Assembly (NCBI RefSeq): GCF_014199215.1
Contig: NZ_JACIJC010000003.1
Span: 186,001 to 250,000, forward strand
Source: Sphingobium boeckii
GTDB taxonomy: Bacteria; Pseudomonadota; Alphaproteobacteria; Sphingomonadales; Sphingomonadaceae
DNA length: 64,000 nt
Reading direction: 5' to 3'
Below are positions 1 through 53,819 of this stretch, in pieces; the first letter of the stretch is position 1, and every line of letters starts with the position of its first letter. The position numbers were made by a program, and so were the translations under genes. The notes below the pieces were generated by a model. It ran no database searches and was not told where the DNA came from. It worked only from the letters and a program-made list of their open reading frames with translations.

Positions 1-155
1 CCCTTGGCCTCGATCGCCCGCCCTGTCGCCACCGCAGCGGCCAACTGCGCCGAGACGCGCGCTTCGGGCAGGCCGATCAGTTCGGCGATGGCCGCGGCCC
101 CGGCATGACGCTTGATCGCCGCGCCGTGAAACACCAGATCGCGTTCGTCCATCAT
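1..155 (-). CDS. Small PEP-synthase-associated protein, N-terminal part (cut by window edge)
   Basis: About 51 N-terminal residues are visible, beginning MMDERDLVFHGAAIKRHAGA; the gene continues off the left edge. The region (HGAAIKRHAG, then AAIAELIGLPEARV) looks like a small helix-turn-helix-like domain of the kind I associate with split pyruvate-phosphate-dikinase/PEP-synthase systems. The start ATG overlaps the stop of the upstream mobile-domain gene (ATGA), so the two are translationally coupled and probably work together. A longer product carrying further domains is possible because only the front end is seen. Function is inferred from context only. Confidence 0.45.
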   Translation of the reverse strand, partial: MMDERDLVFHGAAIKRHAGAAAIAELIGLPEARVSAQLAAAVATGRAIEAK

Positions 156-907
156 GCCGCTTCTCCCGCGCGGCGCAGCCGCCAGACGCGGGCGACCCGA
201 TCGATCCCCTGCTGATAATCCTCGGTGGTCTTTGCAGCCGCACTGGATTCGATCACCACCCGGTCGCCCTCCTGAATGCCCGCGATCTTGGCGTTCATCA
301 CGCAGGGAATGTTATATTCGCGGGTCAGGATGCCCAGATGCGACCGCACCGTGCCGCCCGCGCAGATCACGCCGGCGAACTGCTCGATGATCGGCGCGGT
401 CAGCGTGCCACCGGAATCGTCGATGATCGCGATCGTGCCTTCGGGCACGCCATCGGTGAGATAGGCCAGCACGCGTTGGTTGGTCCGGATGAAATGCGCG
501 GTGCCGCTGATATCGCGATCATGGCGCACCACATTGTCACCCACACCCGCCAGCGCGCGCCCATCGCCATCCAGATCGCCCTGCGGCGCATCGGGGTGCG
601 AAAAGCTCTCGTCGCGCTGGCCCTGATCGCCGCGCGGCTTGTAGATGTCTGGGCGTTCGTCGGCTGAAATGCTGGCGGACCAGTCGAAGCGATGCCCTGT
701 CGCCAGGATGCGCCGCTCCACCGCAGCCAGATCATCCCGCGTCAGTGCCGCATCGGCATCCGCAAAGCGGAAATCCTGCCAGGGCTTGCCCGAATCGGCG
801 AAGCGGGCGCGCATGATTTCCTGCACCAGGCTGAGCGTGGCCTCCACCAGCGCCGAGGCCGGCGGATTGGCTTTCCGCGCGCCATCGATGGGCAATTGTG
901 CCCGCAT
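152..907 (-). CDS. PEP-utilising enzyme mobile (phosphohistidine) domain protein
   Basis: A 251-residue protein whose C-terminal half is the swivelling phosphohistidine domain of PEP synthase/pyruvate phosphate dikinase enzymes: GTIAIIDDSGG, then the signature CAGGTVRSHLGILTREYNIP with the presumed phosphorylated His190, followed by GDRVVIESS. It has no ATP-grasp or PEP/pyruvate barrel domain, so it must act with separate subunits, as in split systems such as phenylphosphate synthase. I chose the ATG at 907 rather than 970 because GGGAGA lies just upstream and the extra 21 residues look non-coding. It is coupled to the gene at 1-155. A FadR-type palindrome (987-999) sits 80 bases upstream. 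The phosphorylated substrate is unknown. Confidence 0.8.
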   Translation of the reverse strand: MRAQLPIDGARKANPPASALVEATLSLVQEIMRARFADSGKPWQDFRFADADAALTRDDLAAVERRILATGHRFDWSASISADERPDIYKPRGDQGQRDESFSHPDAPQGDLDGDGRALAGVGDNVVRHDRDISGTAHFIRTNQRVLAYLTDGVPEGTIAIIDDSGGTLTAPIIEQFAGVICAGGTVRSHLGILTREYNIPCVMNAKIAGIQEGDRVVIESSAAAKTTEDYQQGIDRVARVWRLRRAGEAA

Positions 908-986
908 CCCATCTTCTCCCAATCTGCTTTTATTGTCCGTGAATGTGACGCGGCGCGCCACGCATGTCAAGCATGTGCTAGATGAA

Positions 987-999
987 ATCGTCCGACGAT
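987..999. promoter_or_regulatory. Candidate FadR/GntR-type operator, copy 1
   Basis: ATCGTCCGACGAT is a perfect odd palindrome in the divergent region between the mobile-domain gene (minus, start 907) and surE (plus, start 1062). It fits the FadR-subfamily pattern TNGTNNNACNA. A near-identical site lies at 9734-9746 in front of the carboxylase operon, also preceded by gaa. Binding is inferred. Confidence 0.5.
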
Positions 1000-1061
1000 A
1001 TTGACGGGCATTCTGCGATCACCTAGGATCAGCCGCATAAGAACAGGCTTTGGAGAGATGC

Positions 1062-1844
1062 GTGAAACACAACCCTGCCCCCCGGGTTCTGATCGTCAAT
1101 GATGATGGCATCGACGCGCCCGGCATCGTCCTGCTCGAAGAAATCGTGCGCGGCTTCACCGATGATATCTGGGTGGTCGCGCCCGATGAAGAGCGTTCCG
1201 GCGCAGGGCATTCGCTGTCCTTGTCTCACCCGATCCGCATCAAGCAACGTGACGAGCGGCATTTCGCGGTGAAAGGCACGCCCACCGATTGCGCCTTGCT
1301 CGGCGTCTATGAACTGCTCGGCGACAAGCGGCCGGATATCTTGCTTTCGGGTATCAATCGCGGCCCCAATCTCGCGGAGGACATCACCTATTCCGGCACC
1401 GCCTCCGCCGCAATCGAGGGTGCGATGCTGGGCATCCCGTCCGTCGCCTTGAGCCAGGTCTGGAGCTACCAGACCCCGGTGCATTGGGACACTGCGCGCC
1501 AATATGCCGCACCCGTGATCGCGCGTCTGCTCGCTATGGAATGGCGGCAGGGCACATTCGTCAACGTCAATTTTCCGCATTGCCCGGTGGAGGATGTGAC
1601 CGGGGTGCGCGTCACCACGCAGGGAATGCGCCCGCCCGGATCCTTCCGTCCGATCCCGCGCATCGATGAACGCCATGTGCCCTACTACTGGATCAAGATC
1701 GCTTTCCCCGATGGCGGCGCGGCGGAGGGCAATGATCTGGCGGCGGCGCGCGACAATGCGGTGTCGATCACGCCGATGCAGCTCGACATGACCGCGCATG
1801 ATCTGATGAGCGATTTCCGCAGCGCATTCGACGAAGTGGGGTAG
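1062..1844 (+). CDS. surE: 5'/3'-nucleotidase SurE family
   Basis: A 260-residue SurE-type phosphatase that dephosphorylates nucleoside 5'- and 3'-monophosphates using a divalent metal. The family's N-terminal motif VLIVNDDGIDAPG carries the metal-binding DD pair, NRGPNL supplies the conserved Asn, and ITYSGTASAAIEGAMLGIPS is the classic SurE Ser/Thr segment. The start is a GTG at 1062 with GGAGAG a few bases upstream; the in-frame TTG at 1050 overlaps that ribosome site and is less likely. In many proteobacteria surE sits by pcm/nlpD, which are absent here, so this may be a second, catabolic-island copy. It points away from the mobile-domain gene and towards the thiolase gene. Confidence 0.9.
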   Translation: MKHNPAPRVLIVNDDGIDAPGIVLLEEIVRGFTDDIWVVAPDEERSGAGHSLSLSHPIRIKQRDERHFAVKGTPTDCALLGVYELLGDKRPDILLSGINRGPNLAEDITYSGTASAAIEGAMLGIPSVALSQVWSYQTPVHWDTARQYAAPVIARLLAMEWRQGTFVNVNFPHCPVEDVTGVRVTTQGMRPPGSFRPIPRIDERHVPYYWIKIAFPDGGAAEGNDLAAARDNAVSITPMQLDMTAHDLMSDFRSAFDEVG

Positions 1845-1862
1845 TTCAGACAAGCCCCTAAA

Positions 1863-1955
1863 CCGTCATCCTCGCGAAAGCGGGAATCCCGCTTCTACCT
1901 TTTCTTCTGACAGCCCGCCAAAGAAGCGGGATTCCCGCTTTCACGAGGATGACGG
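1863..1955. repeat. Long inverted repeat (REP/BIME-like) between convergent genes
   Basis: Two 34-base arms (1863-1896 and 1922-1955) are inverted copies with one mismatch. Each arm contains the smaller palindrome CGGGAATCCCG. The element lies exactly between the convergent surE and thiolase genes and can fold as one large hairpin, so it probably terminates or insulates both transcripts. The sequence style is that of dispersed repeats common in sphingomonad intergenic regions. Confidence 0.85.
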
Positions 1956-1968
1956 TGGGCGCGGCGAC

Positions 1969-3195
1969 CTAGACCTTCGCCAGAATCGTCACGGCGGACA
2001 ACCCGTCCTCGACCCCGTAAAACCCGCCCGAATTTTCGGCCACGGCCAGCCGCGCGCCGTCCACCTGACGCGCCCCGGCCTCGCCGCGCAATTGGGTGAC
2101 CAGTTCGTGGATCTGGCCGATGCCGGTCGCGCCGAGCGGATGCCCCTTTGACACCAGCCCGCCCGAGACATTCACCGGGATGCGGCCGCCCAGCGCGGTT
2201 TCGCCGCGTTCCGCTGCCGGACCCGCCTCGCCCGCCGCGCACAGGCCGAGCGCTTCCACCTGGATGATCTCGCCCGAGGAGCTGGCATCGTGCACTTCGG
2301 CCAGATCCATATCTTCCGGCCCGACGCCCGCTTTCTCGAAGGCGCGCGCCGAAGTGATTTTCGTGACATGGCAATCATAGGCATCAGGTGCGCGGTCGCG
2401 ACCGCTCTGCTGTTCGGCGGCCAGCACGCGGATGCCGCGCGCCCCTGAAAAACGCGCCAGCATCTCGGCCGAACAGACGATCGCAGCGGACGCTCCATCG
2501 CTGATCGGCGCGCACATCGGCACGGTGAGCGGCCAGGCCACAGCGGGCGCGGCCATGATCTGCGCTACGCTCATCGCCTCGCGATATTGCGAGCGCGGAT
2601 TGAAGCGCGAATGATTATGGTTCTTCGATGCCACCGCCGCGATCTGCTGCTGCGTGGTGCCAAAAGTTGCCATGTGCAGCCGGGCCTGCGCGGCATAGGC
2701 CTGCATCATGATATTGGGTCCAGGGCCATCCATCCCTTCCGGGGCAGCGGCGAGCATCCCCTGCGTGCGATCGAGATAGCCCTGCGCCACCAGCGCATCC
2801 AGAGGCTGCTGGAACACCGCGAACCTCTTGGCGCGATCATCGCTGTAGAGTTTCTCCACCCCCACCACGAGCGCGACATCCACCAGCCCGGCGCGCACAT
2901 AATCGATCGCGACATGCAGCCCCACGGTGGAGCTGGCGCAGGCGGCCTCCACATTCATCACCCGCACGCCCTCAATCCCCATCGGGCGCAAAGCATATTC
3001 GCCGGGGATGGACATTTCGCCCGCGAAAAAGCCCTGAATCACATTGGCATAGATCGCCATGCCGAGATCGCTCGCCGTGGCACCCGCGTCCTGCAGCGCC
3101 TCGGTCACCGCCAGCCGCGCAAGATCGCTGTGGTTCTTGTCGAGATGACGGCCGAAGGGCGTCATGCCCACACCCGCGATAAAGGCTTCGCGCAT
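1969..3195 (-). CDS. Thiolase family protein (SCP-2/lipid-transfer type)
   Basis: A 408-residue thiolase-superfamily protein. The acyl-accepting cysteine is Cys86 in NVEAACASSTVG; VHDASSSGE and the catalytic-His segment GGLVSKGHPLGATG follow. The C-terminal segment reads AENSGGFYG, so the second cysteine of ordinary degradative thiolases is not obvious, which is typical of SCP-2-like thiolases that cleave or transfer unusual acyl-CoAs. The start at 3195 shares bases with the stop of the ligase gene (TGATG overlap); the longer reading to 3222 would lie inside that ligase. As the last gene of the carboxylase operon it probably cleaves the beta-ketoacyl-CoA made upstream. Substrate unknown. Confidence 0.85.
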   Translation of the reverse strand: MREAFIAGVGMTPFGRHLDKNHSDLARLAVTEALQDAGATASDLGMAIYANVIQGFFAGEMSIPGEYALRPMGIEGVRVMNVEAACASSTVGLHVAIDYVRAGLVDVALVVGVEKLYSDDRAKRFAVFQQPLDALVAQGYLDRTQGMLAAAPEGMDGPGPNIMMQAYAAQARLHMATFGTTQQQIAAVASKNHNHSRFNPRSQYREAMSVAQIMAAPAVAWPLTVPMCAPISDGASAAIVCSAEMLARFSGARGIRVLAAEQQSGRDRAPDAYDCHVTKITSARAFEKAGVGPEDMDLAEVHDASSSGEIIQVEALGLCAAGEAGPAAERGETALGGRIPVNVSGGLVSKGHPLGATGIGQIHELVTQLRGEAGARQVDGARLAVAENSGGFYGVEDGLSAVTILAKV

Positions 3196-4745
3196 CAGAT
3201 CACCTTCCCGGCTTGGACCCAATAGGGTTTGCGGAGTTCCGCGCGGGAGACCTTGCCCGCATTGGTGCGCGGCAGGCTTTCGACCTGCTCGATCCTTTTG
3301 GGTGTCTTGACCGGACCCAGCGCATCGCGCGCGAACATCATCAGATCAGCCAGATCGCATTGCGCGCCCGCACGCGGCTCCACGAACGCGATCACCGCCT
3401 CGCCCCATTTCTCGTCGGGAATGCCGATCACCGCGCAATCCTGCACGGCCTCATGCGCCAGCAGCGCCTTTTCCACTTCGGCGGGATAGACGTTGAACCC
3501 ACCCGAAATGATCATGTCTTTCTTGCGATCGACCACGTAGAACCAGCCGTGCTCATCTCGGACGCCGATGTCGCCGGTATGGTGCCAGCCGAAAGTGGAC
3601 ACCTCCGCCGTCGCTTGCCGGTTCTTGTAATAGCCCGCCATCACCAGCGGCCCGCGCACGACGATCTCGCCGCGTTCGCCGGGCGGCAGGATATGGCCTT
3701 CGTCATCCATGATCTCGACGATGGAGAGCAGATTGGGTCGTCCACAACTGCCCGGATGCGCCAGTTCGCCTTCCGCATTCAGATGCTCGTGCGGCGGCAT
3801 CGCGGTAACGCACATCGGCGCTTCGGTCTGCCCGAAGCTGGCATTCATCACCGGCCCGAAGATGCGGATCGCCTCCTTCAGCCGGTCGAGCGACATCGGC
3901 GCGCCGGCATAGGATATATATTCGAGACTGGAGAAATCCGCACGCTCCACGCCGGGATGCGCGAGCAGCATGTAGATCGCTGTCGGCGGCAGGAACATAT
4001 AGGTCACGCGATGCCGTTCGATCGCGGCGATCACATCGGCGGGATCGAATTTGGGCAGGATGACGACCGTGCCGCCCAGCGCCATGCTGGCGAGCGCCAG
4101 CGGCCCTGCCGCATGGGTCATGGGCGCTGCGACCAGATTGACCGGCGGCACCTTCATCGGCATCGACGCGACCAGGCTGGATACCAGCGCCTGCCAGTTT
4201 CCGTTGCTCAGCATCACGCCCTTGGATCGCCCGGTGGTGCCGCCCGTATTGGCGAGGAAGCCGAGTTCGTCAGGCGCGCCGGTGCGGCGTTGCGGTGCCG
4301 CCGCGCCATCGGCGACCACCCGGTCCTCAAGGAAGAAATCCGCTTCGGGAAAGGGCCGATCGAGCGCGATATAGCGGCGGATGCGCGGGCAACCCGCGCG
4401 GAAGGCCGCGATCCGGCCTGCCACCTCGGAATGCACAAACAGCGTATCCACATCGAGCAGATCGAACAGGTCGGCATTTTCCGCCACGCTCGCGCGGTTG
4501 TTCGCCATCGCCCAGACGCCATCGGCGCGCAGGATTCCGAGCACCGCTTCAAAGGCCACCATCGCATTGCCGCTCAGCACCGCACCATGCGCGCCCGCGG
4601 CAAAGCCGTCGGCGATCAGCAGATTGGCGATGGCGTGGGTGCGCGCGGCCACATGGGCATATGTTTTCTCAACATCGCCCGCGATCATGCACGGACGATC
4701 GTGCGCGATGCGTGCGCCACGGTCGAAATAGTCGATCATCCGCAT
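3195..4745 (-). CDS. AMP-forming acyl-CoA synthetase/ligase
   Basis: A 516-residue ANL-superfamily enzyme that adenylates a carboxylic acid and transfers it to CoA. The P-loop-like motif NTGGTTGRSKGVML, the hinge region VVDRKKDMIISGGFNVYPAE and the C-terminal lysine motif RTNAGKVSR are all intact. It sits between the carboxyltransferase-like gene (3-base gap) and the thiolase (TGATG overlap), so I infer that it forms the CoA thioester of the carboxylated product that the thiolase then cleaves. It is distinct from the second ligase at 9791-11296; the two may act on different intermediates. Confidence 0.9.
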   Translation of the reverse strand: MRMIDYFDRGARIAHDRPCMIAGDVEKTYAHVAARTHAIANLLIADGFAAGAHGAVLSGNAMVAFEAVLGILRADGVWAMANNRASVAENADLFDLLDVDTLFVHSEVAGRIAAFRAGCPRIRRYIALDRPFPEADFFLEDRVVADGAAAPQRRTGAPDELGFLANTGGTTGRSKGVMLSNGNWQALVSSLVASMPMKVPPVNLVAAPMTHAAGPLALASMALGGTVVILPKFDPADVIAAIERHRVTYMFLPPTAIYMLLAHPGVERADFSSLEYISYAGAPMSLDRLKEAIRIFGPVMNASFGQTEAPMCVTAMPPHEHLNAEGELAHPGSCGRPNLLSIVEIMDDEGHILPPGERGEIVVRGPLVMAGYYKNRQATAEVSTFGWHHTGDIGVRDEHGWFYVVDRKKDMIISGGFNVYPAEVEKALLAHEAVQDCAVIGIPDEKWGEAVIAFVEPRAGAQCDLADLMMFARDALGPVKTPKRIEQVESLPRTNAGKVSRAELRKPYWVQAGKVI

Positions 4746-4748
4746 GGG

Positions 4749-6206
4749 TCAGCGCCGCAGCGTGAAATCTAGCTCGCTCGACCGGACCTGCACCAGCGGC
4801 GCGGTCGCCATCTTGATCAGGCGCTGGACACGATCGAATTCGGGCGAGGACAGGGTTGGATAATCCTTCTGCACCGGCCCGGCCAGCCGCATCCGATCGA
4901 TATCGGACGCGGGCACCAAAGCGCGCAGGATCAGTTCGTCATCATCCTCCCCCGTGCCATGGCGGCGGCGGAGCTCCGCCAGATCGGGCTGTTCGGGCGG
5001 ATAGGCCAGAATTTCCTTGGCGCGCGGCTTGGACATGATCTGATCCATCACATTCGCGTCGATCGGCGCGACAGGATCGCCATAATAGCCCGCGGCATAT
5101 TGGATCACTTCATCGGGCACGACCGAATAGCGCTTGCCCGTGACGATGTTCAGCACGGCCAGCGTGCCAACCAATTGCGCAAAGGGCGTCGCCATGCCGG
5201 GATAACCCAGCTCGCGCCGCACCGTGGCCACTTCGGCCAGCACCGCGGGCAATTTATCGAGCATATTCTGCTGCACCAATTGAGCGCGCAACGTGCCCAT
5301 CATGCCGCCCGGAATCTGGTGCTTCAGCGCGGTCACGTCATATTCGAAATGCTGGTTGACCAGGAACCCCGCCGCCTTGCCCACGCGCTCGAAATGTTCA
5401 GCGACGGGGGGCAACAGGCTGGTGTCGATATTATGCGTATGCCCCATGATCTCGACATTCTTGGTCATGATCTCGATCGAGGGGATGGACGGGCCATTGG
5501 CCATCGGGCGAACGGCGGTGTGCAACACGGTCACGCCGAATTCGATCGCGTCCATATAGGATTTGGCGGATTGGCCGAGCATGTTGTTGGCGTGCATCTC
5601 GATCGGCTTGCCGCGCGCTTTCGCGACGATCGCCGGCACCAGGGTTGAGATGCGATCGCGATCGAGCACGCCGCCGGTATCATAGAGCAACAAGCTGTCT
5701 ACCTCGGGCAATGCGGAGAGCTTGTCCGCCTTGTCCGCATAATAGGCATCGTCATGCACCGGGGAGAGCGTGAAGAGCATCGTGCCCGCCACCTGGCAGC
5801 CATGGCCCTTGGCGATCTTCGCCAGCCGGTGCATCTTGTCGATATTGAACAGAACGTCATACAGCCAGAAGCTGCGGATGCCGTGCACGCACAGGCGATC
5901 CACCCACAGATCCATCAGCACATCGGGCGTGAAGCCGAACGTCACCGAGCCATTGGAGCGACAGCCTGCACGCAGCGGCGTATTGGGCATTGAGCCGATC
6001 AGCAGATCGAGCCCCGCCCAGGGATCTTCCTGGCAATGGCGGGTCAGCACTTCGAACAGCGAAGACCCTGCCAGGCTGATGATATTATAGCCCGTCTTGT
6101 CGATGATCGGGGACACCGGCAGCGCCATGCCCGCCTGCATCCGCATCCCCCACAGGCTCTGCTGCCCATCGCGCATCGTTTCATCGAGAAAGGTGATATG
6201 AGCCAT
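4749..6206 (-). CDS. Carboxyltransferase-like protein (pyruvate carboxylase CT / 5S family) with altered active site
   Basis: A 485-residue HMGL-like TIM-barrel protein of the pyruvate carboxylase carboxyltransferase, oxaloacetate decarboxylase alpha and transcarboxylase 5S group. The N-terminal metal/substrate motif FLDETMRDGQQSL is recognisable (Asp8, Arg12, Gln15-16). By eye alignment, other hallmarks are changed: the carbamylated lysine of the IKDMAG motif is Tyr175 (LLLYDTGGV), the HTHD metal motif is MHANN (His205 kept, second His replaced by Asn207), and the SMSGMTSQP threonine region reads PMANGPSIP. The fold and the neighbouring BC and BCCP genes still say biotin-dependent carboxyl transfer, but pyruvate is an unlikely acceptor and metal use may differ. 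The biotin carboxylase gene ends 4 bases upstream. Confidence 0.85.
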   Translation of the reverse strand: MAHITFLDETMRDGQQSLWGMRMQAGMALPVSPIIDKTGYNIISLAGSSLFEVLTRHCQEDPWAGLDLLIGSMPNTPLRAGCRSNGSVTFGFTPDVLMDLWVDRLCVHGIRSFWLYDVLFNIDKMHRLAKIAKGHGCQVAGTMLFTLSPVHDDAYYADKADKLSALPEVDSLLLYDTGGVLDRDRISTLVPAIVAKARGKPIEMHANNMLGQSAKSYMDAIEFGVTVLHTAVRPMANGPSIPSIEIMTKNVEIMGHTHNIDTSLLPPVAEHFERVGKAAGFLVNQHFEYDVTALKHQIPGGMMGTLRAQLVQQNMLDKLPAVLAEVATVRRELGYPGMATPFAQLVGTLAVLNIVTGKRYSVVPDEVIQYAAGYYGDPVAPIDANVMDQIMSKPRAKEILAYPPEQPDLAELRRRHGTGEDDDELILRALVPASDIDRMRLAGPVQKDYPTLSSPEFDRVQRLIKMATAPLVQVRSSELDFTLRR

Positions 6207-6210
6207 GGGC

Positions 6211-7578
6211 TTACTCCGGTGAGGGAACGCCGTCGGCGAGCAGAATTTGCTCCAGCCAGCGTGTGTGGATGCGATTGGCGATGAAATCGGGGTGGCGCAC
6301 GATCGCGCGGTGAAGATCGATCGTGGTCGGCACGCCCTCCACCTTGAAACTGTCGAGCGCGGTCGTCAGCTTCGCCACGGCGTCGGCGCGATCCGTGCCA
6401 TGAACGATCAATTTGCCGATCATGCTGTCATAAAAAGGCGGGATCACCGCGCCTTCGCTCATATGGCTGTCGAGACGGACGCCGTCGCCTTCGGGTGGTC
6501 GCCAGCCCGTGATGCGGCCGGGCACGGGGATGAAGCCCTTGCCCACATCCTCGGCATTGATCCGGCATTCGATTGCATGACCCGTCATAGCGATATCGTC
6601 TTGCGACACGGAGAGCGGCGCACCGCCGGCGATGCGGATCTGCTCCTGCACCAGATCGAAGCCGGTCACCATTTCGGTAACGGGATGCTCCACCTGGATG
6701 CGGGCATTCACCTCGATGAAATAGACTTCCTGCCGCGCAACATCGTAAAGAAATTCGGCAGTGCCCGCGTTGCGATAATTGACGCTGGACGCCAGCGCGA
6801 CCGCGGCTTCATGCAGTTGCTTGCGGACTTGATCGGGCATTGCCGTGCACGGCGCTTCCTCGACGAGCTTCTGATAGCGGCGCTGCACCGAACAATCGCG
6901 TTCGCCGAAATGAACGACCTTGCCGGTGCCGTCGCCCATGAGCTGGACCTCGACATGCCGCGCCTCGGGCACGAAGCGCTCCATGAACAGCCGGCCATCG
7001 TTGAACGCCGCCTGCGCTTCGGCGCTGGCTTTGTGAAAACCGGCCTCCGCTTCGTCGCCATTGTTCGCGATCACCATGCCACGCCCGCCGCCGCCGGCCG
7101 AAGCCTTGAGCAACACCGGATAGCCGATGCGATCGCCCTCGCGCCGTGCATCGGCTGCGCTGGCGATTTCCTCGCTGCCCGGCACCAGCGGCACGCCTGC
7201 CGCCTTGGCCATGGCGCGCGCCTGCAATTTGTCGCCCAGCGCATCGATCATGTCCGGCTCCGGGCCGACAAAGGCGATGCCGTGTTCGGCGCACAGCCGG
7301 GGCAGGATAGAGCGTTCGGAGAGGAAACCGTAGCCCGGATGCAGCGCATCGCATCCGCTCGCCTTGGCGGCATGAACCACCAGCCGGGGGTCGAGATAGG
7401 ATTTCGCCGCAGGACCGGGGCCGATCACCAGGGTGCGATCGGCCAGCCGCGCCGCCGCGCTATCCTGATCCGCCTCGGACACGCCGATGACGGTTTCGAC
7501 ATTCAGCCCCTGCGCCGCGCGGACGATCCGCAGGGCGATCTCCCCGCGATTGGCGATGAAAAGACGCGATACAGCCAT
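6211..7578 (-). CDS. Biotin carboxylase subunit (acetyl/pyruvate carboxylase type)
   Basis: A 455-residue ATP-grasp enzyme that carboxylates biotin using ATP and bicarbonate. It opens with the typical SRLFIANRGEIALRIVRAA, carries the glycine-rich lid KASAGGGGRGM and the catalytic segment EVNARIQVEHPVTEM. The length is normal for a stand-alone AccC-type subunit. I start it at the ATG at 7578; the longer frame to 7671 runs into the carrier gene. It is separated by 4 bases from the carrier protein gene upstream and by 4 bases from the carboxyltransferase gene, giving a complete three-part biotin-dependent carboxylase. Confidence 0.93.
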   Translation of the reverse strand: MAVSRLFIANRGEIALRIVRAAQGLNVETVIGVSEADQDSAAARLADRTLVIGPGPAAKSYLDPRLVVHAAKASGCDALHPGYGFLSERSILPRLCAEHGIAFVGPEPDMIDALGDKLQARAMAKAAGVPLVPGSEEIASAADARREGDRIGYPVLLKASAGGGGRGMVIANNGDEAEAGFHKASAEAQAAFNDGRLFMERFVPEARHVEVQLMGDGTGKVVHFGERDCSVQRRYQKLVEEAPCTAMPDQVRKQLHEAAVALASSVNYRNAGTAEFLYDVARQEVYFIEVNARIQVEHPVTEMVTGFDLVQEQIRIAGGAPLSVSQDDIAMTGHAIECRINAEDVGKGFIPVPGRITGWRPPEGDGVRLDSHMSEGAVIPPFYDSMIGKLIVHGTDRADAVAKLTTALDSFKVEGVPTTIDLHRAIVRHPDFIANRIHTRWLEQILLADGVPSPE

Positions 7579-7582
7579 CGGA

Positions 7583-8092
7583 TCAGGCCGGCACGATGAT
7601 GAAGAGCGGCTGATCCGCCTCGACCATCTGGCCGTCGGTGGCCAGGATGGCGTGGACAATGCCTGCCACATCGGCGCGCACCGCGGTGAACAATTTCATC
7701 ACCTCGACCAGGCACAATTCGGACTCGGCGGTTACGACGGAACCCACATCGACATAGACCGGCGATCCGGGTTTGGGCGAGCGATAGAAGGTGCCCAGAT
7801 ACGGCGCGCTGACGATGATCGCGCCTGCCGGCGCCTCGCTGACTGTGGAATTTGCCGCCGCTTCGACGGGGGGATGCGAAGCGGCGGCGGCCGGCCTTTG
7901 TGGCTCGGCCTTGGGAGAGGAAGTCGCAGGGGTCGCGATCACCTGGGCATCGAGGCCCGGCGCGGCTGGATCGGCAGACAGGTAAATCTCGAAATCGGCC
8001 GCACGCACATGCAGTTCGTGCATCCCCGATCGCTGGAAATCCGCGATCAGCGCCTCGATATCATCTGGTTTCTTGCCTTTGGAATTGCTCAC
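7583..8092 (-). CDS. Biotin carboxyl carrier protein (biotin/lipoyl domain)
   Basis: A 169-residue BCCP. The N-terminal region (to about residue 40) resembles the AccB start, followed by an Ala/Pro/Ser-rich flexible linker (about 50-90) and a C-terminal biotinyl domain with SAPYLGTFYRSP, the thumb-like region SPKPGSPVYVDVG and the biotin attachment site EVMKL (Lys133). It carries carboxybiotin between the biotin carboxylase and the altered carboxyltransferase. Its start overlaps the stop of the 515-residue gene upstream (ATGA), so stoichiometry with that unknown protein is likely controlled by coupling. Confidence 0.93.
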   Translation of the reverse strand: MSNSKGKKPDDIEALIADFQRSGMHELHVRAADFEIYLSADPAAPGLDAQVIATPATSSPKAEPQRPAAAASHPPVEAAANSTVSEAPAGAIIVSAPYLGTFYRSPKPGSPVYVDVGSVVTAESELCLVEVMKLFTAVRADVAGIVHAILATDGQMVEADQPLFIIVPA

Positions 8093-9636
8093 GATTTGCC
8101 CTCCCGAAGCGCCTCGATGGCGGCGCGCGTCAGGCCCACGCCCCTGCCCTTCAGCAGGGCCGATTGCTCCTGTTCCATCCGGTACAGCGCGTTTGCCGCC
8201 TCGCTCGCCGGATCGTTGCGGATGCTTGAATCGCAGAGGAAGCGATAGGGTGCCTGCATCTGCGCCGGCCGGAACGCCGCAGCACGCGCATTATAATCCG
8301 CCAGCGTCAGCGGCCCCGCGCTGGTGACATAGCGATCCTGCTTTGCGGGAAAATGGGACACGCCGGGTGTGATCGGTGCCAGGCTCTCGCGATCCTCCCC
8401 GTTCAGCACCGAATAGGGGATGTGCGATATATAGCGGCACGGCCGGTCATTATGCTGCATCATCGCATATTCATGCAGTTGCTGAGTCGGCAGATCGACC
8501 AGCCCGACGAGTTCCCCCAGGAAGTCACGGCCAAATTCGTCATTCAGCAGCGGCCGGAAGCGATCGGCGCGGACGTCGATCTTCATCCAGTCGTCCACAT
8601 CATAGACGCCCGCGACATGCGCGAAATCCTTGATGAGAGAGAAATAGACGATCGCGCCCGCATCCATCATCTCATCGCGCGACCAGCCCGCGACGCGCTT
8701 CCACAGATCGACCGTCGCCTTGCGGAAGGCCTCGGTCAGCCGTTCGAACGTCTCGGCCAGTTCTTCGGCCGATCCCATGCCGACCGGCACATGGCCTTCG
8801 GTGAGCACATCGGAGGTATAGAGCCCGACGCCGGTCAGCTTTTCCGCGGTAAATTCAGGCTGCGATTCAAAGCTGCCCCAATCGTCCATCAGATAGAAAT
8901 GGCAATCCGTCGCCTCCATGGTGACGGTGAGGTTCGAATAGGGAATGTCATCCGCCACGCCATCCAGCCAGGGATAATCGCCCTGCGCCAGATCGGTGAA
9001 ATCGCGGATGATCAGCTCGCGATTTTCGCCGAGCTTGTAGGGACCGGAATTGTTGAGCGTGCAGCGGCTCTCGCACGAGACCAGGAACCCATATTGGGAG
9101 ACGGTGGCGAGGAAAGTCTGCGCCGCGCGGTGCAGCCGGTCGCCATTCACGCAAGGGTGAAGATCGGCATGGAAGCGCTGGATGCGGCGTTCGGGCAGCA
9201 ATTGCACGCGCTGGCCGAATTCGCGGGCGTTCAGATGCCCGTCTTCGCGCTGCTGCGCCAGCTTGAAGCGACGCCAGAAATCCATGACATAGGCCACGTC
9301 TTCGGCGGCGTCTTCCGGGTGCAGCGCACCCATATTGAGCAATATCTCGCGGCCCAGCAGGAAGAAGGTTGGCAGACCCCAGCCCGGCAGATTGCCGAAC
9401 TTGCCGCCCATCGCCCGCGCCCGGTCACCAATTTCCTCCGCGCTCATCTTCGCTTCGATTTTGCGCAGCAATGCGGGGTAGCGATAGAAGCAGCAGAGAT
9501 AGGAGAGCAGCATATAGGACGGGACAGGAAACAGCTTCGATTCCTGCACCGTGCGCGTCACGCAGAGCCAATAGGTGTCATCGCCAATCGTCTGGATCGC
9601 ATTATTGGCTTCAAGGAGGCGGGCATAATCCAGCAT
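8089..9636 (-). CDS. Unknown 515-residue protein heading the carboxylase operon
   Basis: I do not recognise this family. It is a soluble-looking 515-residue protein with no signal peptide, rich in aromatic residues, with notable segments FPVPSYMLLSYLCCFYRYP, GWGLPTFFLLGREILLNMG, SCESRCTLNNSGPYKLGE, YSNLTVTMEATDCHFYLMDD and RPCRYISHIPYSVLNGEDRE. Paired Cys and His residues could bind a metal, but no known motif fits. It is translationally coupled to the BCCP gene, so it is probably an obligatory part of the carboxylation system: an activating, substrate-binding or acceptor subunit. The ATG at 9636 has no good ribosome site; see the in-frame amber codon at 9640-9642 that separates it from a better start. 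Confidence 0.8.
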   Translation of the reverse strand: MLDYARLLEANNAIQTIGDDTYWLCVTRTVQESKLFPVPSYMLLSYLCCFYRYPALLRKIEAKMSAEEIGDRARAMGGKFGNLPGWGLPTFFLLGREILLNMGALHPEDAAEDVAYVMDFWRRFKLAQQREDGHLNAREFGQRVQLLPERRIQRFHADLHPCVNGDRLHRAAQTFLATVSQYGFLVSCESRCTLNNSGPYKLGENRELIIRDFTDLAQGDYPWLDGVADDIPYSNLTVTMEATDCHFYLMDDWGSFESQPEFTAEKLTGVGLYTSDVLTEGHVPVGMGSAEELAETFERLTEAFRKATVDLWKRVAGWSRDEMMDAGAIVYFSLIKDFAHVAGVYDVDDWMKIDVRADRFRPLLNDEFGRDFLGELVGLVDLPTQQLHEYAMMQHNDRPCRYISHIPYSVLNGEDRESLAPITPGVSHFPAKQDRYVTSAGPLTLADYNARAAAFRPAQMQAPYRFLCDSSIRNDPASEAANALYRMEQEQSALLKGRGVGLTRAAIEALREGKS

Positions 9637-9690: not shown

Positions 9691-9733
9691 CATTATGTTA
9701 TGATTCGCTTTCGGAGCAGTATAGTCGATCGAA

Positions 9734-9746
9734 ATCGTCTGACAAT
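9734..9746. promoter_or_regulatory. Candidate FadR/GntR-type operator, copy 2
   Basis: ATCGTCTGACAAT lies about 100 bases upstream of the carboxylase operon start and matches copy 1 (987-999) at 11 of 13 positions, including the preceding gaa. Both fit TNGTNNNACNA. The shared site suggests one GntR-type regulator controls the mobile-domain gene and the carboxylase operon. No adjacent gntR gene is present in this block. Confidence 0.5.
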
Positions 9747-31910: not shown

Positions 31911-32669
31911 ATGGAAATGGCCGGAAAACAGAGGATTGCCGCAAGCCGCGAAGATGTGTGGCGTGCGCTGAACGACCCGCAAGTGCTGCGGCAATGTATC
32001 CCCGGCTGCCAGTCGCTCGAACAGGATGGCGCGGAACGCTTCAAGGCGACGGTGGAAATCAAGATCGGCCCCATCGGCGCCCGCTTCACCGGTGCCGTCA
32101 CGCTCACCGATCTCAATCCGCCGCAAGGCTATACGATCGTCGGCGAAGGCAGCGGCGGCATGGCGGGATCGGCCAAGGGCAATGCCAAGGTTGCCCTGGC
32201 GGATGACAATGGTGCCACCATTTTGAGCTACACGGTCGAAGCGCAGGTGGGCGGCCGCCTTGCCCAATTGGGTGGCCCGATCATCGACGCTACGGCCAAG
32301 CAGCTCGCCGCCAAATTCTTCCGCAAGTTCGAAGAAGTGATCACCGGCGCGAAAGCAGACGTGTCGGAAACGCAGCCCACGAATGCGGCTGGCGTGACGG
32401 AGTTACGCCCTGCCCCGGCCTTCGCGCCCCGCGACCAGCGTGGGCTGCCGATCGCCTGGATCCTCGCGCTCGCGGTGGCCGCCTTAACCGGCTTCCTGGT
32501 GGGTCGCGGAGACGGCGGCAACGGCTCCGACTGGATGGGGCTGGCGATCGGGCTGCTCGTCATCATCGTCGCCGCGGCGGGCTTCGAATTCGGTCGGCGC
32601 AGCGCTGCGCCTATAGTGATGCTGGATGACGCCGTGCTGGCGCGGCTGGCCGGCGGACGCCGGCCATGA
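31911..32669 (+). CDS. CoxG-like membrane anchor (SRPBCC) of molybdenum hydroxylase
   Basis: A 252-residue protein: an N-terminal SRPBCC domain of the CO-dehydrogenase subunit G type (EDVWRALNDPQVLRQCIPGC, IKIGPIGARFTGAVTL) and a C-terminal pair of membrane helices (about 180-200 and 205-228) with a glycine-rich link. In CO dehydrogenase systems CoxG recruits the enzyme to the membrane; here it probably does so for the oxidoreductase encoded directly downstream. It starts the operon and overlaps the next gene by four bases. Confidence 0.9.
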   Translation: MEMAGKQRIAASREDVWRALNDPQVLRQCIPGCQSLEQDGAERFKATVEIKIGPIGARFTGAVTLTDLNPPQGYTIVGEGSGGMAGSAKGNAKVALADDNGATILSYTVEAQVGGRLAQLGGPIIDATAKQLAAKFFRKFEEVITGAKADVSETQPTNAAGVTELRPAPAFAPRDQRGLPIAWILALAVAALTGFLVGRGDGGNGSDWMGLAIGLLVIIVAAAGFEFGRRSAAPIVMLDDAVLARLAGGRRP

Positions 32670-33535
32670 AACCTGCGCCCTTTGACTATATGCGGCCTGA
32701 CACGATCGAAGAGGCCTGTGCCATATTGGCGGAAGCCGGCGGCGGCGCGACCGTGATCGCGGGAGGACAGACGCTCATGCCGCTGCTGGCGCTGCGGATG
32801 AGCCAGCCGTTCATCCTGGTCGATCTCAGCCGCATCACCGCCTTGCGCGGCGTGACCCGCATCGCGGAAGCGACGCGGATCGGGCCGATGACCACGCAGA
32901 ATGATGCGATCGCCGATGCGACGTTGCAAAGCCGCCTGCCGCTGCTGGTCCAGGCGCTCCGCCATGTCGGGCATCATCAGACCCGCAACCGCGGCACCAT
33001 CGGCGGCTCGATCGCCTTTGGGGAACCCGCCGCGGAATCACCGGCGGCCGCTGTGGCGCTGGGCGCAACGCTGGAGCTGCGTTCGGTCCGCGGCGTGCGC
33101 ACGGTGCCCGCGGACGAATTCTATCTCGGCCCCTATGCCACCGTGATCGAGCCCGATGAGTTGCTGACCGCGATCGACGTGCCGGACTGGCCTGCGGATT
33201 CGGTGCCGCTCTTTCGGGAAGTGGCCTTGCGACCGGGCGATTTCGCTCTGGTCGGGCTGATCGGTTCGATCGTCCTCGAAAGCGGCAAGATCGCGCGCGC
33301 CAGCCTCGCTTGGTTCGGCATGGGGGCGACCCCCATCAAGGCCCGGCGCGCCGAGGACGCCCTGATCGGCCAGTCTCCGGACTCGCTCCAGCCGGCATTG
33401 ATCGCGGAACTGGCGATCGCCGAAACCGATCCGTTCGACGATCACCATGCGACGGCCGATTATCGCCGCACGGTCGGTCAACGCATTTTCACGCGAACGC
33501 TGAGCGAAGCGCTCGGCATAAGGCAGGCAGCATGA
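32666..33535 (+). CDS. FAD-binding (medium) subunit of molybdenum hydroxylase
   Basis: A 289-residue CoxM-type flavoprotein subunit. VIAGGQTLMPLLALRMSQP and TRNRGTIGGSIAFGEPAAE are the two FAD-binding loops. It passes electrons from the iron-sulfur subunit to the acceptor. It overlaps both neighbours by ATGA, consistent with a fixed-stoichiometry complex. Confidence 0.94.
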   Translation: MKPAPFDYMRPDTIEEACAILAEAGGGATVIAGGQTLMPLLALRMSQPFILVDLSRITALRGVTRIAEATRIGPMTTQNDAIADATLQSRLPLLVQALRHVGHHQTRNRGTIGGSIAFGEPAAESPAAAVALGATLELRSVRGVRTVPADEFYLGPYATVIEPDELLTAIDVPDWPADSVPLFREVALRPGDFALVGLIGSIVLESGKIARASLAWFGMGATPIKARRAEDALIGQSPDSLQPALIAELAIAETDPFDDHHATADYRRTVGQRIFTRTLSEALGIRQAA

Positions 33536-34005
33536 GCGACCATCGGATCGAATTGACGGTAAATGGGCAGACGCGTTCGGCCACGGTCGAAGGACGCCGC
33601 ACGCTGAGCGATTTCCTGCGCATCGACGCGGGCTATACCGGCGTTCACGTCGGTTGCGAACATGGCGTATGCGGTGCGTGCACCGTGATCGTGGACGGGC
33701 GCGCGGTGCGATCGTGCCTGATGCTGGCCGTGCAGGCGGATGGCGCTGCAGTAACGACCGTCGAAGGCCTGGCCGCGCCGGACGGAACGCTCCATCCCGT
33801 GCAGCAGGCTTTGCGCGACGCGCATGGCCTGCAATGCGGTTTCTGCACACCAGGAATCGTGATGACCCTGGCCGCTCTCACCAGCGACGAAAAGAAGCCC
33901 GGCGCGGAGACGCTGCTCGGTGCGATGTCCGGCCATATCTGCCGCTGCACGGGCTATCAGGGCATCAGGAAAGCCGCGCGCGCGCTGGCGGGAGAAGACG
34001 TATGA
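33532..34005 (+). CDS. 2Fe-2S (small) subunit of molybdenum hydroxylase
   Basis: A 157-residue CoxS-type ferredoxin subunit. The plant-type cluster is ligated by VGCEHGVCGACTVIVDG and the second cluster by LQCGFCTPGIVM with HICRCTGYQG. All eight cysteines are present. The start at 33532 overlaps the medium subunit's stop. Confidence 0.95.
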   Translation: MSDHRIELTVNGQTRSATVEGRRTLSDFLRIDAGYTGVHVGCEHGVCGACTVIVDGRAVRSCLMLAVQADGAAVTTVEGLAAPDGTLHPVQQALRDAHGLQCGFCTPGIVMTLAALTSDEKKPGAETLLGAMSGHICRCTGYQGIRKAARALAGEDV

Positions 34006-36833
34006 ACCCGACCATCAACGCCGCCCGCTTCATTGGCCAGCGAGTGCCGCGCAAGGAAGATCACCGCCTGCTGACGGGACGCGGCACCTTCGTGGACGAT
34101 GTCGTCGTGGCGGGCATGTTGCACGTCGCCTTTCTGCGCAGCCCCATTGCGCGCGGGCGGATCCTGTCCTTCGACACCGCCGCAGCGCGCGCGATGCCGG
34201 GCGTCCATGCGATCCTCACCGCGGCCGACCTTTCGGCACTCAAGATCGACATGCTGAGTTTCTTTCTCGCGCCGGCCGAGATCGCCATCACGCCGCTGGC
34301 GGACGGGCGCGTGGCTTATGTCGGCGAACCCGTCGTCATGGTCATCGCCGTGGATCGCTATGTGGCAGAGGACGCCACCAGCCTGATCGAGATCGACTAT
34401 GACGAGGAAGACCCCGTCGTCACGATCGACGACGCCAGGACGGGCGCGCCCGTGCACCCCGGCATGGATTCGAACGTGGCGGCCGCCATGGGCGAGGACG
34501 AGATCAACGAGCCGCTGGAAGCCCTGCTCCGCGACGCACCGCATCTGATCAGCGGCACCATCACTCATCAGCGCATCGCCCAATCCCCGATGGAAACACG
34601 CGGCGTGATCGTCTCGCCGCAGGGGAGCGAGGAGATCATCGTCTATATCACCTGCGCGAGTCCGCATCTGATCGCACGCAATCTGAGCATGGCGTTCAAT
34701 CTGCCGAACACCAATTTCCGCGTGATCGCCAAGGATGTCGGCGGATCCTTCGGCCTGAAGAACCAGCCGTGGAAGGAAGAGATGGCGGTCATCGCGGCGG
34801 GCATCCTTCTGGGACGTCCGCTGAAATGGATCGAAGACCGCTGGGAGAATTTGACCGGTGCCAATCAGGCGCGCGAGCAGGAAATGACGCTTCGCATCGC
34901 CTTCGACAATGACGGAAAATTGCTGGCATCCCACGCCGATTATCACCTCAACAACGGTGCCTATCCGCATGGCGCGGATTGCAACATCGCGGTCGTGATG
35001 TTCCTCTGGTCGGCCTATAAGATACCCGAATTCAGCTTTCAGACGCAGGGATGGTTCTCCAATACCGCCGGGCTTGCGGCCTATCGCGGCCCCTGGGCGA
35101 TCGAGACGCTGGCGCGCGAAGTGCTGCTGGACGAGGCCGCCCGCAAGATCGGAATCGATCCGATCGAAATCCGCCGGCGCAATTTGATCACCAGAGCCGA
35201 TCAGCCGATGGTGGCATCCATGGGCATTCCGATCGACGATATCAGCCCGATGGAATGCCTCGACAAGCTGCTCGAAGTAGTCGACGTGGCCGCCTTTCGC
35301 ATCGAGCAGGAAGCCGCCCGCAAGGAAGGCCGCTATCTGGGCATCGGCTTTGCCACCTATATCGAGCCGACCGGTGCGGCGGGCAGCATCAACGTGATGA
35401 CGGGCGAACTGGCGCATGTGCAGATCGAGCCGACCGGCAAGGTCACAGCGATCATGAGCACGCATTCGCAAGGCCATGGCACGCAGACCACCATGGCGCA
35501 GATCTTCGCCGAAGAACTCGGCGTGCCCTTTGAAGACGTGACCGTGCATGAGGGCGACAGCTCGCGCGGTGGCTTTAGCCCGGGCGCGGCGGGCAGCCGC
35601 CAGGGCGTCATCGGCGGCGGCGCGTCCATCAAGGCGGCGGGGTTGCTGCGGGACAAGATCAAGAAGGTGGCGGCGCATCTGCTCAACGCCAATCCCGACG
35701 ATGTCACGATCGAAGGCGGCATGGTCCGGGTGCGGGGGGCCGAGGAAATGACGCGCAGCCTGCGCCAGATCGCGGAGATCGCTTATGGCGAGCCCGACCG
35801 CCTTCCACCCGGCATGGAATCGGGATTGGAGGCGCAATATCGCTACAATCCGCCGCCGATGACCTTCACCAGCGCCGCTCATGCCTGCATCGTGGAGATC
35901 GATGCCGAGACGGGTTTCGTGAAGATCAAGCGATGGGTGTCCAGCGAGGATTGCGGGGTGATGATCAATCCCGCAATCGTCGAGGGCCAGATTTCGGGTG
36001 GGCTGGCGCAGGCCATCGGCACGGTGTTGCTGGAAGAATTCGGCTATGACGATCGCGGCAATCCCACCACCGTGACCTTCAAGGATTATATGCTGCCCGC
36101 GATTTCGGACGTCCCGGATTTCGAATTCGTCCATGCCAACACACCCTCCCAGGCGGAAGGCGGATTTCGCGGCGTGGGCGAAGGCGGGTGCATCATCGGC
36201 CCGCCGACCCTGGTCAATGCCATTGCCGATGCACTTTCGCCCTTCAACGCGCGGTGCCTTGATCTCCCGCTGACGCCGTCCAAGATCCTGCAGCTTATGG
36301 AAGGCAAGGATATCTCCCGCGCGGCCCAGCGACAGGTGAAATCGGATGCCGCCGCCGCTGCTGCTGCCGCCAAGGCCGTGGCCGAAAAGGAGGTGCACAT
36401 CGGCAGCCATGGCGAAGGGCTGCCCCCCATGGCGGCCGCGATGCTGCCCGGTGGCGCGGATGCCGCGGCGCTGGAAGCCGAAAGCACCGAAAGCGAGGTC
36501 CACGCCGATGGATCAGCGACGGAGGCAGCGCCACCATCGAGCCCGGCAGGCGATTGGGATTGCGTCATGTCCACGCCGATGGGGCCGCAAACGATGAAGC
36601 TGCATTTCGATATCGAGGGCGACGCCGTGACCGGATACACCAGCAGCCCCGACGGCACGGCCGAATTCACCGGCATTGCGCTTGGCAATCAGATCAAATT
36701 CGATCTGAAAGTGACCAAACCCATGAAAATCACCCTGAAATACGACATTGCGATCGAGGGCGACGTGCTGGCGGGCAAGGTGAAAATGGGGCTGTTCGGG
36801 ACCGCTAAACTTAAGGGAAGCCGGGCGGAATAG
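34002..36833 (+). CDS. Molybdopterin (large) subunit of xanthine-dehydrogenase family, with fused C-terminal beta domain
   Basis: A 943-residue large subunit. Residues 1 to about 770 are the molybdenum cofactor domain (FIGQRVPRKEDHRLLTGRG at the start, GGSFGLKNQPW, catalytic Glu in RGVGEGGCIIGP near 726). The active-site loop reads AAYRGPWA (about 358), without the Cys of true CO dehydrogenase (AYRCSFR), so CO is not the expected substrate; an aldehyde or N-heterocycle is likelier. After an Ala-rich linker, the last 95 or so residues (from about 848; AGDWDCVMSTPMGPQTMKLH onwards) form an extra beta-strand-rich domain. The frame to 33654 is read-through of the small subunit. Confidence 0.93.
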   Translation: MNPTINAARFIGQRVPRKEDHRLLTGRGTFVDDVVVAGMLHVAFLRSPIARGRILSFDTAAARAMPGVHAILTAADLSALKIDMLSFFLAPAEIAITPLADGRVAYVGEPVVMVIAVDRYVAEDATSLIEIDYDEEDPVVTIDDARTGAPVHPGMDSNVAAAMGEDEINEPLEALLRDAPHLISGTITHQRIAQSPMETRGVIVSPQGSEEIIVYITCASPHLIARNLSMAFNLPNTNFRVIAKDVGGSFGLKNQPWKEEMAVIAAGILLGRPLKWIEDRWENLTGANQAREQEMTLRIAFDNDGKLLASHADYHLNNGAYPHGADCNIAVVMFLWSAYKIPEFSFQTQGWFSNTAGLAAYRGPWAIETLAREVLLDEAARKIGIDPIEIRRRNLITRADQPMVASMGIPIDDISPMECLDKLLEVVDVAAFRIEQEAARKEGRYLGIGFATYIEPTGAAGSINVMTGELAHVQIEPTGKVTAIMSTHSQGHGTQTTMAQIFAEELGVPFEDVTVHEGDSSRGGFSPGAAGSRQGVIGGGASIKAAGLLRDKIKKVAAHLLNANPDDVTIEGGMVRVRGAEEMTRSLRQIAEIAYGEPDRLPPGMESGLEAQYRYNPPPMTFTSAAHACIVEIDAETGFVKIKRWVSSEDCGVMINPAIVEGQISGGLAQAIGTVLLEEFGYDDRGNPTTVTFKDYMLPAISDVPDFEFVHANTPSQAEGGFRGVGEGGCIIGPPTLVNAIADALSPFNARCLDLPLTPSKILQLMEGKDISRAAQRQVKSDAAAAAAAAKAVAEKEVHIGSHGEGLPPMAAAMLPGGADAAALEAESTESEVHADGSATEAAPPSSPAGDWDCVMSTPMGPQTMKLHFDIEGDAVTGYTSSPDGTAEFTGIALGNQIKFDLKVTKPMKITLKYDIAIEGDVLAGKVKMGLFGTAKLKGSRAE

Positions 36834-44619: not shown

Positions 44620-44683
44620 CTTGCGCTCCATTGGTCTGGCGTCGCGCTTCCAGCCTGCGTGGGAGCGGACGACGGTCGAAGGA

Positions 44684-46894: not shown

Positions 46895-46974
46895 AGGCGG
46901 ACCTCATGGCAATGAGAAAAAAGACGGCGAGGCAATGCAGATGCACCGCCTCGCCGAGGGAGGAATATCGAACC

Positions 46975-49716: not shown

Positions 49717-49819
49717 ATATCCCCCTCCTGAAGGCCCGGCTCGTTGTCCGAGAATTTTGAACGCTTTCACGCGCCGCCCTTGACGAAAATCAAAGCGATG
49801 AAAGCAATTTTACCGCCCC

Positions 49820-49848
49820 ATAGGATTGGAAACGGCGGCTCCTGTCAA
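49820..49848 (-). promoter_or_regulatory. Candidate promoter of the TonB-receptor operon
   Basis: On the minus strand TTGACA (49848-49843) is followed, 17 bases on, by TCCTAT (49825-49820). AT-rich sequence reading TTATTTACTCTGACTAATTT lies just upstream (49851-49870) and may bind the divergent ROK regulator. The -10 match is weak. Confidence 0.4.
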
Positions 49849-49922
49849 CAATTATTTACTCTGACTAATTTAATGGCGGGCGTGGTTGGACGGATGGCGA
49901 TGTTTCGGGCTATCAGATTCCC

Positions 49923-51107: not shown

Positions 51108-51166
51108 GCCGCGACTATCGAGGTGCCCGCGCCTTCTGCCTGATATTGCTGCGGGCGTCGTCATGC

Positions 51167-51190
51167 GCTATCTACCATATGGTGGATAGC
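51167..51190. promoter_or_regulatory. Palindromic operator over the tetR start codon
   Basis: The half GCTATCTACCAT (51167-51178) is the reverse complement of ATGGTGGATAGC (51179-51190) apart from one base, an almost perfect 24-base palindrome whose right half is the first four codons of tetR. Such an overlap suggests autorepression. It shares TATCTACCA with the site by the first tetR. Confidence 0.65.
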
Positions 51191-51829: not shown

Positions 51830-51845
51830 AAAAGGAAGTTTGGAG

Positions 51846-53732: not shown

Positions 53733-53773
53733 TCCGCCGGGCCGCCGTCCTTATTAACTATGACGGTGAATGT

Positions 53774-53807: not shown

Positions 53808-53819
53808 CCATCGGGTGCG

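Follow-up and report, generated by a model that had tools for sequence, protein, structure and literature searches.

A 64,000-nucleotide stretch of the Sphingobium boeckii genome (contig NZ_JACIJC010000003.1, positions 186,001 to 250,000; hereafter the window) carries near its left end a minus-strand operon, 9636-1969, for a protein of 515 residues (U515), a biotin carboxyl carrier protein (BCCP), a biotin carboxylase (BC), a carboxyltransferase (CT), an acyl-CoA ligase (LIG1) and a thiolase, in that order. Together with an adjoining kinase module, it probably encodes a catabolic pathway in which a hydroxy-ketone is phosphorylated, carboxylated, dephosphorylated and cleaved by thiolysis, parallel to the published Hpe and Acv pathways, built on a multi-part PPDK-type dikinase and placed under one operator. 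In this scheme, a dikinase composed of PPDK645, U201, MOB272 and U515 would phosphorylate the hydroxyl of the ketone, the phosphate presumably being relayed from one swivel histidine to the other; BCCP, BC and CT would add a carboxyl group beside the carbonyl of the phosphorylated ketone; the phosphate would be taken off by a phosphatase, SurE in the window and a PF13350-type protein elsewhere; and LIG1 would form a beta-keto acyl-CoA for the thiolase to cleave. We provisionally place the steps in this order because the same order has been demonstrated biochemically for Hpe (PMC9618137, excerpts). The substrate is probably a phenolic or otherwise hydroxylated ketone.

Operon structure and shared operator

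All six genes of the operon are present and tightly packed, with intergenic gaps of -4, +4, +4, +9 and -1 bp after correction of starts (open reading frame maps were made with our own codon-usage gene caller), and Pfam matches were obtained for BCCP, BC, CT (PYC_OADA), the AMP-ligase and the thiolase, U515 being the exception (Table 1). An initial annotation of this DNA, made from its letters alone, had proposed the same six-gene operon; its genes stood, but not all of their starts, that of BC moving from 7671 to near 7578 and that of MOB272 to near 907. The thiolase scores 204 bits against the NCBIfam BbsB model, far under the cut-off of 750, and the SurE gene of the cluster is the second of two copies in the genome. 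Of the PEP-synthase-like module at the left end, MOB272 is the one gene wholly inside the window; U201 has just its first codons there and runs leftward to C3:185550, so that the remainder of U201 and PPDK645 lie further left in the contig.

The sequence TYGTYNGACGATTTCR occurs upstream of both U515 and MOB272, twice in the window against 0.10 expected, which bears out the earlier suggestion that the operon and the PEP-synthase-like module share an operator. Two more copies lie left of the window, one upstream of a GntR gene and one, with a single mismatch, upstream of U450. The operator core, YGTYNGACGATTTC, has seven exact copies in the 4.03-Mb genome against none for the reversed control; four are at the cluster, and the remaining three fall within or between unrelated genes. 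The regulator that binds the operator is probably this GntR protein, the gene of which adjoins the cluster.

Table 1. Positions of the operator copies and of the operon, phosphatase and kinase genes (window coordinates unless stated otherwise)
Feature	Position	Strand	Basis or remark
Operator copy TYGTYNGACGATTTCR	9730-9745	-	upstream of U515
U515	8089..9636	-	novel protein; proposed substrate-binding subunit of PPDK-type dikinase
BCCP, biotin carboxyl carrier	7583..8092	-	PF00364, TIGR00531; EVMKL motif
BC, biotin carboxylase	6211..7578	-	PF02786/PF02785/PF00289; start by gene model
CT, PYC/OadA-like carboxyltransferase, metal ligands K->Y175 and H->N207	4749..6206	-	PF02436, conservation, tree
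LIG1, AMP-forming acyl-CoA ligase	3195..4739	-	PF00501/PF13193
Thiolase, SCP-x/BbsB-like	1969..3195	-	PF22691, PF00108
SurE-like phosphatase, proposed phosphate remover	1062..1844	+	PF01975
Operator copy TYGTYNGACGATTTCR	983-998	-	upstream of MOB272
MOB272, phosphohistidine swivel protein	152..907	-	PF00391, conservation
U201 N-terminal part, winged helix and helical domain, kinase part	1..155	-	profile match in R. opacus B4 fusion; model of relative L035
PPDK645, PPDK_N and own swivel	L009 10827-12764, left of window		follows U201

A proposed multi-part kinase

U515 has no Pfam or NCBIfam match at E<=0.001 and no significant match among PDB sequences (best E 0.065). Its AlphaFold2 model is confident (pLDDT 92.1), and a Foldseek search of the PDB with that model returned no match at E<=0.001 (best E 0.36); for U201, Foldseek gave weak winged-helix matches (best E 6.4e-3). 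The assignment of U515 comes from a natural fusion, a 793-residue protein on plasmid pROB02 of Rhodococcus opacus B4 in which the swivel profile (residues 16-112), U515 (228-548) and U201 (608-789) follow one another, with a tyrosine-phosphatase gene directly downstream and a PPDK gene within the same 19-kb stretch. Because this protein joins the three parts, we take U515 to belong to the kinase, and the initial view of it as a part of the carboxylase was abandoned on the same ground. R. oxybenzonivorans has swivel and U515 fused in a protein of 542 residues, and split swivel/U515/U201 sets occur in Rhodococcus sp. 008 and Methylibium petroleiphilum PM1.

PPDK645 resembles PPDK in combining an ATP-grasp part with a histidine swivel of its own (best PDB E 6.7e-114). 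Unlike PPDK, it lacks the C-terminal PEP/pyruvate barrel, and the system has an extra, separate swivel together with U515 and U201. PPDK645 has 645 residues against about 874 in the PDB, its best PDB stretches stop by residue 571 of 645 at chain positions ~470-565 of ~874-913, and 27 relatives, in a set pre-filtered to 540-660 residues, are 559-611 residues long. Because the catalytic swivel histidine is invariant both in MOB272 (74/74 rows) and in PPDK645 (27/27 rows; both sets include some contigs twice), the system seems to use two phosphohistidine domains. The kinase alignments, with rows picked by length, include loci L023-L033, several of them on the same contigs as loci among the 80 described below. 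Another row set comprises 65 of 70 rows, leaving out L101 (stop), L086, L095, L098 and L099.

Compared by hhalign with seven AcvA-like rows, the MOB272 swivel gave 95%, U515 0.5% and U201 0.3%, and a reading of U515 as a split HpeH/AcvA was discarded on its value (the AcvB-like set had nine rows, two of them unrelated proteins caught by the length filter). The kinase may represent a new class. As a separate observation, U515 and U201 lie in a single open frame of ~720-740 residues in L070, L075 and L079, maybe another natural fusion.

Relation to known systems

The Hpe pathway of Rhodococcus rhodochrous GD02 consists of the kinase HpeHI, the biotin carboxylase HpeCBA, the phosphatase HpeD, the CoA synthetase HpeE and the hydrolase HpeF; HpeCBA carboxylates the phosphorylated ketone and not the free one, the phosphate is located on the phenol, and the genes of the cluster, hpeHICBADEF, are homologous to acvABCDEF of Sphingobium SYK-6 (PMC9618137, excerpts). 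HpeHI is related to rifampin phosphotransferase and has two components (PMC12167813, excerpts). The logic of kinase, carboxylation of a phosphorylated ketone, phosphatase, CoA ligation and cleavage has thus been published, and the initial description of the pathway as undescribed does not hold, whereas the carboxylation, activation and thiolysis that it envisaged are supported.

The window cluster shares with Hpe/Acv a dikinase, a three-part biotin carboxylase (BCCP, BC, CT), a phosphatase, a CoA ligase and a cleavage enzyme, and its CT falls in a sister clade. It differs from the two-component, rifampin phosphotransferase-like kinase of Hpe/Acv in that U515 and U201 have no detectable AcvA-type homology and the ATP part is PPDK-like. 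Where Hpe/Acv have a HAD phosphatase (a HAD is annotated after CT in three named related records), the window cluster has SurE and other loci PF13350; a thiolase takes the place of the HpeF-type hydrolase, and the metal site of the CT is lost. The differences in kinase, phosphatase and CT active site are large enough to set the cluster apart from Hpe/Acv, the pathway logic itself being already published. A direct Acv ortholog was rejected: the genome has a single PYC_OADA gene, and PPDK_N occurs in it only at the cluster and in one 926-residue frame.

With the family of rifampin phosphotransferase and phenylphosphate synthase, the kinase has in common an ATP-grasp part, a swivel domain with the catalytic histidine and a substrate part. 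The MOB272 swivel resembles the AcvA-type swivel, but the substrate part U515 is unrelated to the AcvA-type rows by hhalign. The thiolase belongs to the same family as the 2-benzoylsuccinyl-CoA thiolase BbsAB and SCP-x, and an OB-fold partner gene is found in the Rhodococcus clusters; unlike those enzymes, it has no OB-fold partner in the window operon and stays below the NCBIfam BbsB cut-off. No paper on this gene set or its hosts was found among the top-ranked open-licence PMC matches.

Conservation of the gene set

U515 was matched in 12 of 298 genomes of the family, S. boeckii included, one match being marginal and partial; because it was not found in the four other genomes of the genus in this sample, the cluster is accessory. 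A contig scan yielded 80 U515 loci (the best 80 of 91 confirmed), many in metagenome-assembled genomes and some in pairs from one genome, of which 47 extend 1.2 kb or more to the left and 9 kb or more to the right of U515. By tblastn, these 47 contain MOB272 in 46, U201 in 46, PPDK645 in 33, BCCP in 35, BC in 34 and CT in 38 cases. The full set of MOB272, U201, PPDK645, BCCP plus BC and CT is present together in 33, and the coupling of kinase and carboxylase modules, assumed in the initial annotation, is real. CT occurs without PPDK and BC in four loci, and a carboxylase without MOB272, U201 and PPDK in one. Plasmid pRB98 of R. oxybenzonivorans S2-17 carries in one run the genes for swivel, U515, AMP-ligase, U201, PPDK, BCCP, BC, CT, OB-fold protein, thiolase and phosphatase, and the same complete run is found on a plasmid of R. 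pyridinivorans P23.

Satellite loci, which have no carboxylase, show the order phosphatase, MOB272, U515, U201, SDR. In a CT search of 24 genomes, most of them with satellite loci, a CT of the U515-cluster type (at least 55% identity) was present in 20, two matches being partial; three of the other four had a remote match only (23-27%, in frames of ~1,150-1,165 residues, by length pyruvate carboxylase) and one had none. U515 homologues are thus mostly accompanied by the carboxylase, both at the locus and in the genome. More than one U515 match was seen in 17 of the 24 genomes, and two copies in 12 once the remote matches of G399, G402 and G406 (27-28%) and the gene-piece cases G412 and G414 are excluded. 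Because the CT is found in 20 of these genomes and U515 is present in multiple copies, a single PPDK-BC-BCCP set may supply several substrate units.

The records with U515 are titled Sphingomonadaceae, Rhodobacteraceae, Gammaproteobacteria and, in a few cases, actinobacteria. A link to mycobacteria, as first envisaged, proved weak: among 396 genomes of the phylum of a Thermoleophilia genome, a close U515 was found in that centre genome only, next to five remote matches at 23-31%. Substrate guesses from host strain names (bisphenol, estrone, oxybenzone) came to nothing, the neighbouring clusters inspected pointing to no single compound. Four records of metagenome-assembled genomes with the cluster (L065, L077, L092, L095) are labelled Klebsiella pneumoniae; the label looks wrong, because their relatives are environmental gammaproteobacterial assemblies of the same kind. 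The split set of M. petroleiphilum PM1 (L186; U515-like, swivel and U201-like genes at plasmid positions 8890-11779) stands ~3.5 kb from genes for a cobalamin-binding protein, an AMP-ligase, MeaB and a methylmalonyl-CoA-mutase-family protein, in what we take to be the 2-hydroxyisobutyrate/methyl tert-butyl ether region. A kinase for tertiary alcohols is an idea suggested by these neighbouring genes.

An altered carboxyltransferase

The window CT is homologous to OadA, PycB and the transcarboxylase 5S subunit and differs from them by Lys to Tyr, His to Asn and AHQ to GQQ. If the metal ligands are, as we assume, the Asp, Lys, His and His of pyruvate carboxylase and 5S structures, to chains of which the CT was aligned by sequence, it keeps the Asp and the first His and loses the other two. 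In 46/46 CTs of the window group, Tyr175 occupies the place of the carbamyl-lysine and Asn207 that of the second metal His, and Gln15 replaces the usual His in 45/45; Arg12, Asp13, His205, Arg83 and Thr230 are kept in every row covering them. Q16 is kept as well. These 46 rows are the window CT and 45 rows of more than 430 residues from L034 up, one without its N-terminus. Eight of eight further rows agree (Lys to Tyr, second His to Asn), four of them from contigs new to the 46 and the other four (L195, L197, L198, L199) from the same contigs as L073, L102, L047 and L051. The altered active site noticed at first sight is therefore real and conserved. In the CTs of R. oxybenzonivorans and R. 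opacus G13, Glu takes the place of the Lys and both His are retained; 11 Acv-type rows retain Lys and both His and have lost Arg83 and Thr230. Acv-type here means the gene order AcvA/AcvB/BCCP/BC/CT/HAD, judged by size and position, plus one named record (L171), a label that rests on gene order and not on sequence orthology to SYK-6; L160 and L163, which show no AcvA/AcvB pair, were counted in, as was L156, which lies on a truncated contig.

In a tree of 32 rows, the window CT groups with the U515-type CTs, including that of R. oxybenzonivorans (100/99), and the R. opacus G13 CT, labelled to no group beforehand, lands inside this clade. The clade is sister to the Acv-type group (100/96), which takes in two Tm-1-linked CTs, and lies away from OadA and PycB-like rows. 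Apart from remote hits, a CT search of 397 genomes of the family gave two groups, 21 rows from 18 genomes with at least 63% identity and 46 rows with 33-39%; U515 is present in 16 of those 18 genomes. Ten of the 46 lower-identity loci were inspected: in seven, genes of the sizes of AcvA and AcvB precede BCCP-CT and a ~280-residue gene is present, one runs into the end of its contig, and two have no AcvA/AcvB pair. A named Rhizobium record shows the full Acv order with HAD and ligase. In L152 and L165 (plasmids of S. yanoikuyae and P. putida), a Tm-1-like ATP-binding protein is encoded directly before BCCP-BC-CT-HAD; it may be one more kinase for this chemistry, made of a single component.

Taken a step further, and offered as a tentative possibility, the system could define a new class of multi-subunit small-molecule dikinase, in which a two-histidine relay from the PPDK-type swivel to the free swivel protein would feed a substrate subunit of new fold, coupled to a biotin CT without the canonical carbamyl-lysine/His metal site; swivel-U515-U201 satellites, whether or not they include a CT, would draw on a common PPDK-BC-BCCP supply for several substrates per cell. 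Were the pathway and its parts confirmed, phosphorylation followed by carboxylation would be a general strategy of ketone degradation, arrived at repeatedly by way of different kinases and not confined to lignin hydroxyacetophenones. The U515 family, which has no Pfam or NCBIfam model and no PDB fold match, would receive its first function, and a biotin CT without the Lys and His metal ligands would change the view of that active site in a directly testable way.

Alternative explanations

Several observations weigh against the proposed pathway. Neither PPDK nor a carboxylase is nearby in 9 of the 47 loci, and no carboxylase is annotated in the stretches around the distant U515 relatives of R. 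opacus B4, Rhodococcus sp. 008 and Methylibium, where the gene table is incomplete. U515 was not found genome-wide in two of the 18 Sphingomonadaceae genomes with a U515-type CT, G032 and G302, where the neighbours of CT and BCCP include thiolase-like genes and, over the 19 kb around, no kinase gene. At the G032 locus (C11, L193), CT and BCCP are preceded by genes for two thiolase-like proteins, a ChsH2-type OB-fold protein, a metallo-beta-lactamase-fold protein, an ECH and two acyl-CoA dehydrogenases; the G302 locus is L196 (C143). Nor was a U515 found on the plasmid of R. opacus G13, the CT of which falls in the U515-type clade. A U515-type CT can thus serve without the kinase and is not tied to it everywhere. 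These three CTs, the nine loci and the R. opacus B4 stretch lend weight to the idea that the two modules work on separate intermediates of one longer pathway, the CT taking a non-phosphorylated intermediate of a CoA pathway. We regard this as unlikely, though the best surviving of the alternatives, in view of the tight co-occurrence in 33 of 47 loci and the sister position of the CT to Acv-type CTs. A further point against phosphorylation followed by carboxylation is that homology of U515 to AcvA is undetectable by hhalign, so the function of U515 is transferred by context only.

The phosphatase bears on the fate of the phosphate. A phosphatase-like gene (SurE, or the PF13350 type, assigned from two representatives) is present in 36 of the 47 loci and was not found in 11, the latter again counting against the pathway; SurE itself is present in 29 of the 80 loci. 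SurE is a general nucleotidase family, and because of this and of its position on the other strand, its role in the pathway is a guess. PPDK and PEP synthase phosphorylate enols. The kinase, close as PPDK645 is to PPDK, might make the enol phosphate of the ketone, to be consumed during carboxylation, and with the metal ligands of the CT lost, enolate stabilisation might come from elsewhere. Such enolisation, which had been the first suggestion for the kinase, is next in likelihood and rather improbable: PPDK645 lacks the PEP/pyruvate barrel, the phosphate of Hpe is on the phenol, and enol phosphorylation is the less likely because a phosphatase, needless if the phosphate left upon carboxylation, is encoded in 36 of 47 loci. 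In the proposed pathway, by contrast, this gene corresponds to HpeD of the Hpe cluster and so agrees with a phosphate that is kept during carboxylation.

That the CT no longer carboxylates, its metal site being broken, and that the complex carries out some other reaction such as decarboxylation, is very improbable. Two of four metal ligands are lost throughout, but BCCP and BC stay with U515 in most of the 47 loci, the window BC keeps its three domains, and the residues of the site are conserved and show no decay. Ordinary pyruvate carboxylase or oxaloacetate decarboxylase subunits, for which the PYC_OADA fold and the retained R12, Q16, R83 and T230 would speak, are hardly credible, since the Lys and second His ligands are replaced in 46/46 rows, the clade stands apart from OadA and the operon is catabolic, with ligase and thiolase; active site and tree speak against a plain pyruvate carboxylase, in line with the initial annotation.

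Other features of the window

Between SurE and the thiolase, at 1860-1960, two inverted-repeat elements around AAGCGGGATTCCCGCTT have the look of REP-type sequences. A molybdenum hydroxylase set of four genes lies at 31911-36833; its large subunit matches MoCoBD and xanthine-dehydrogenase domains, and the other three genes were assigned by eye. Two tannase/feruloyl esterase genes and a GH3 glycosidase gene at 42952-58360 hint at the use of plant polyphenols by the strain, and a third frame, at 53820-55574, resembles the tannase/feruloyl esterase genes, a similarity judged by look and not by domain scan.

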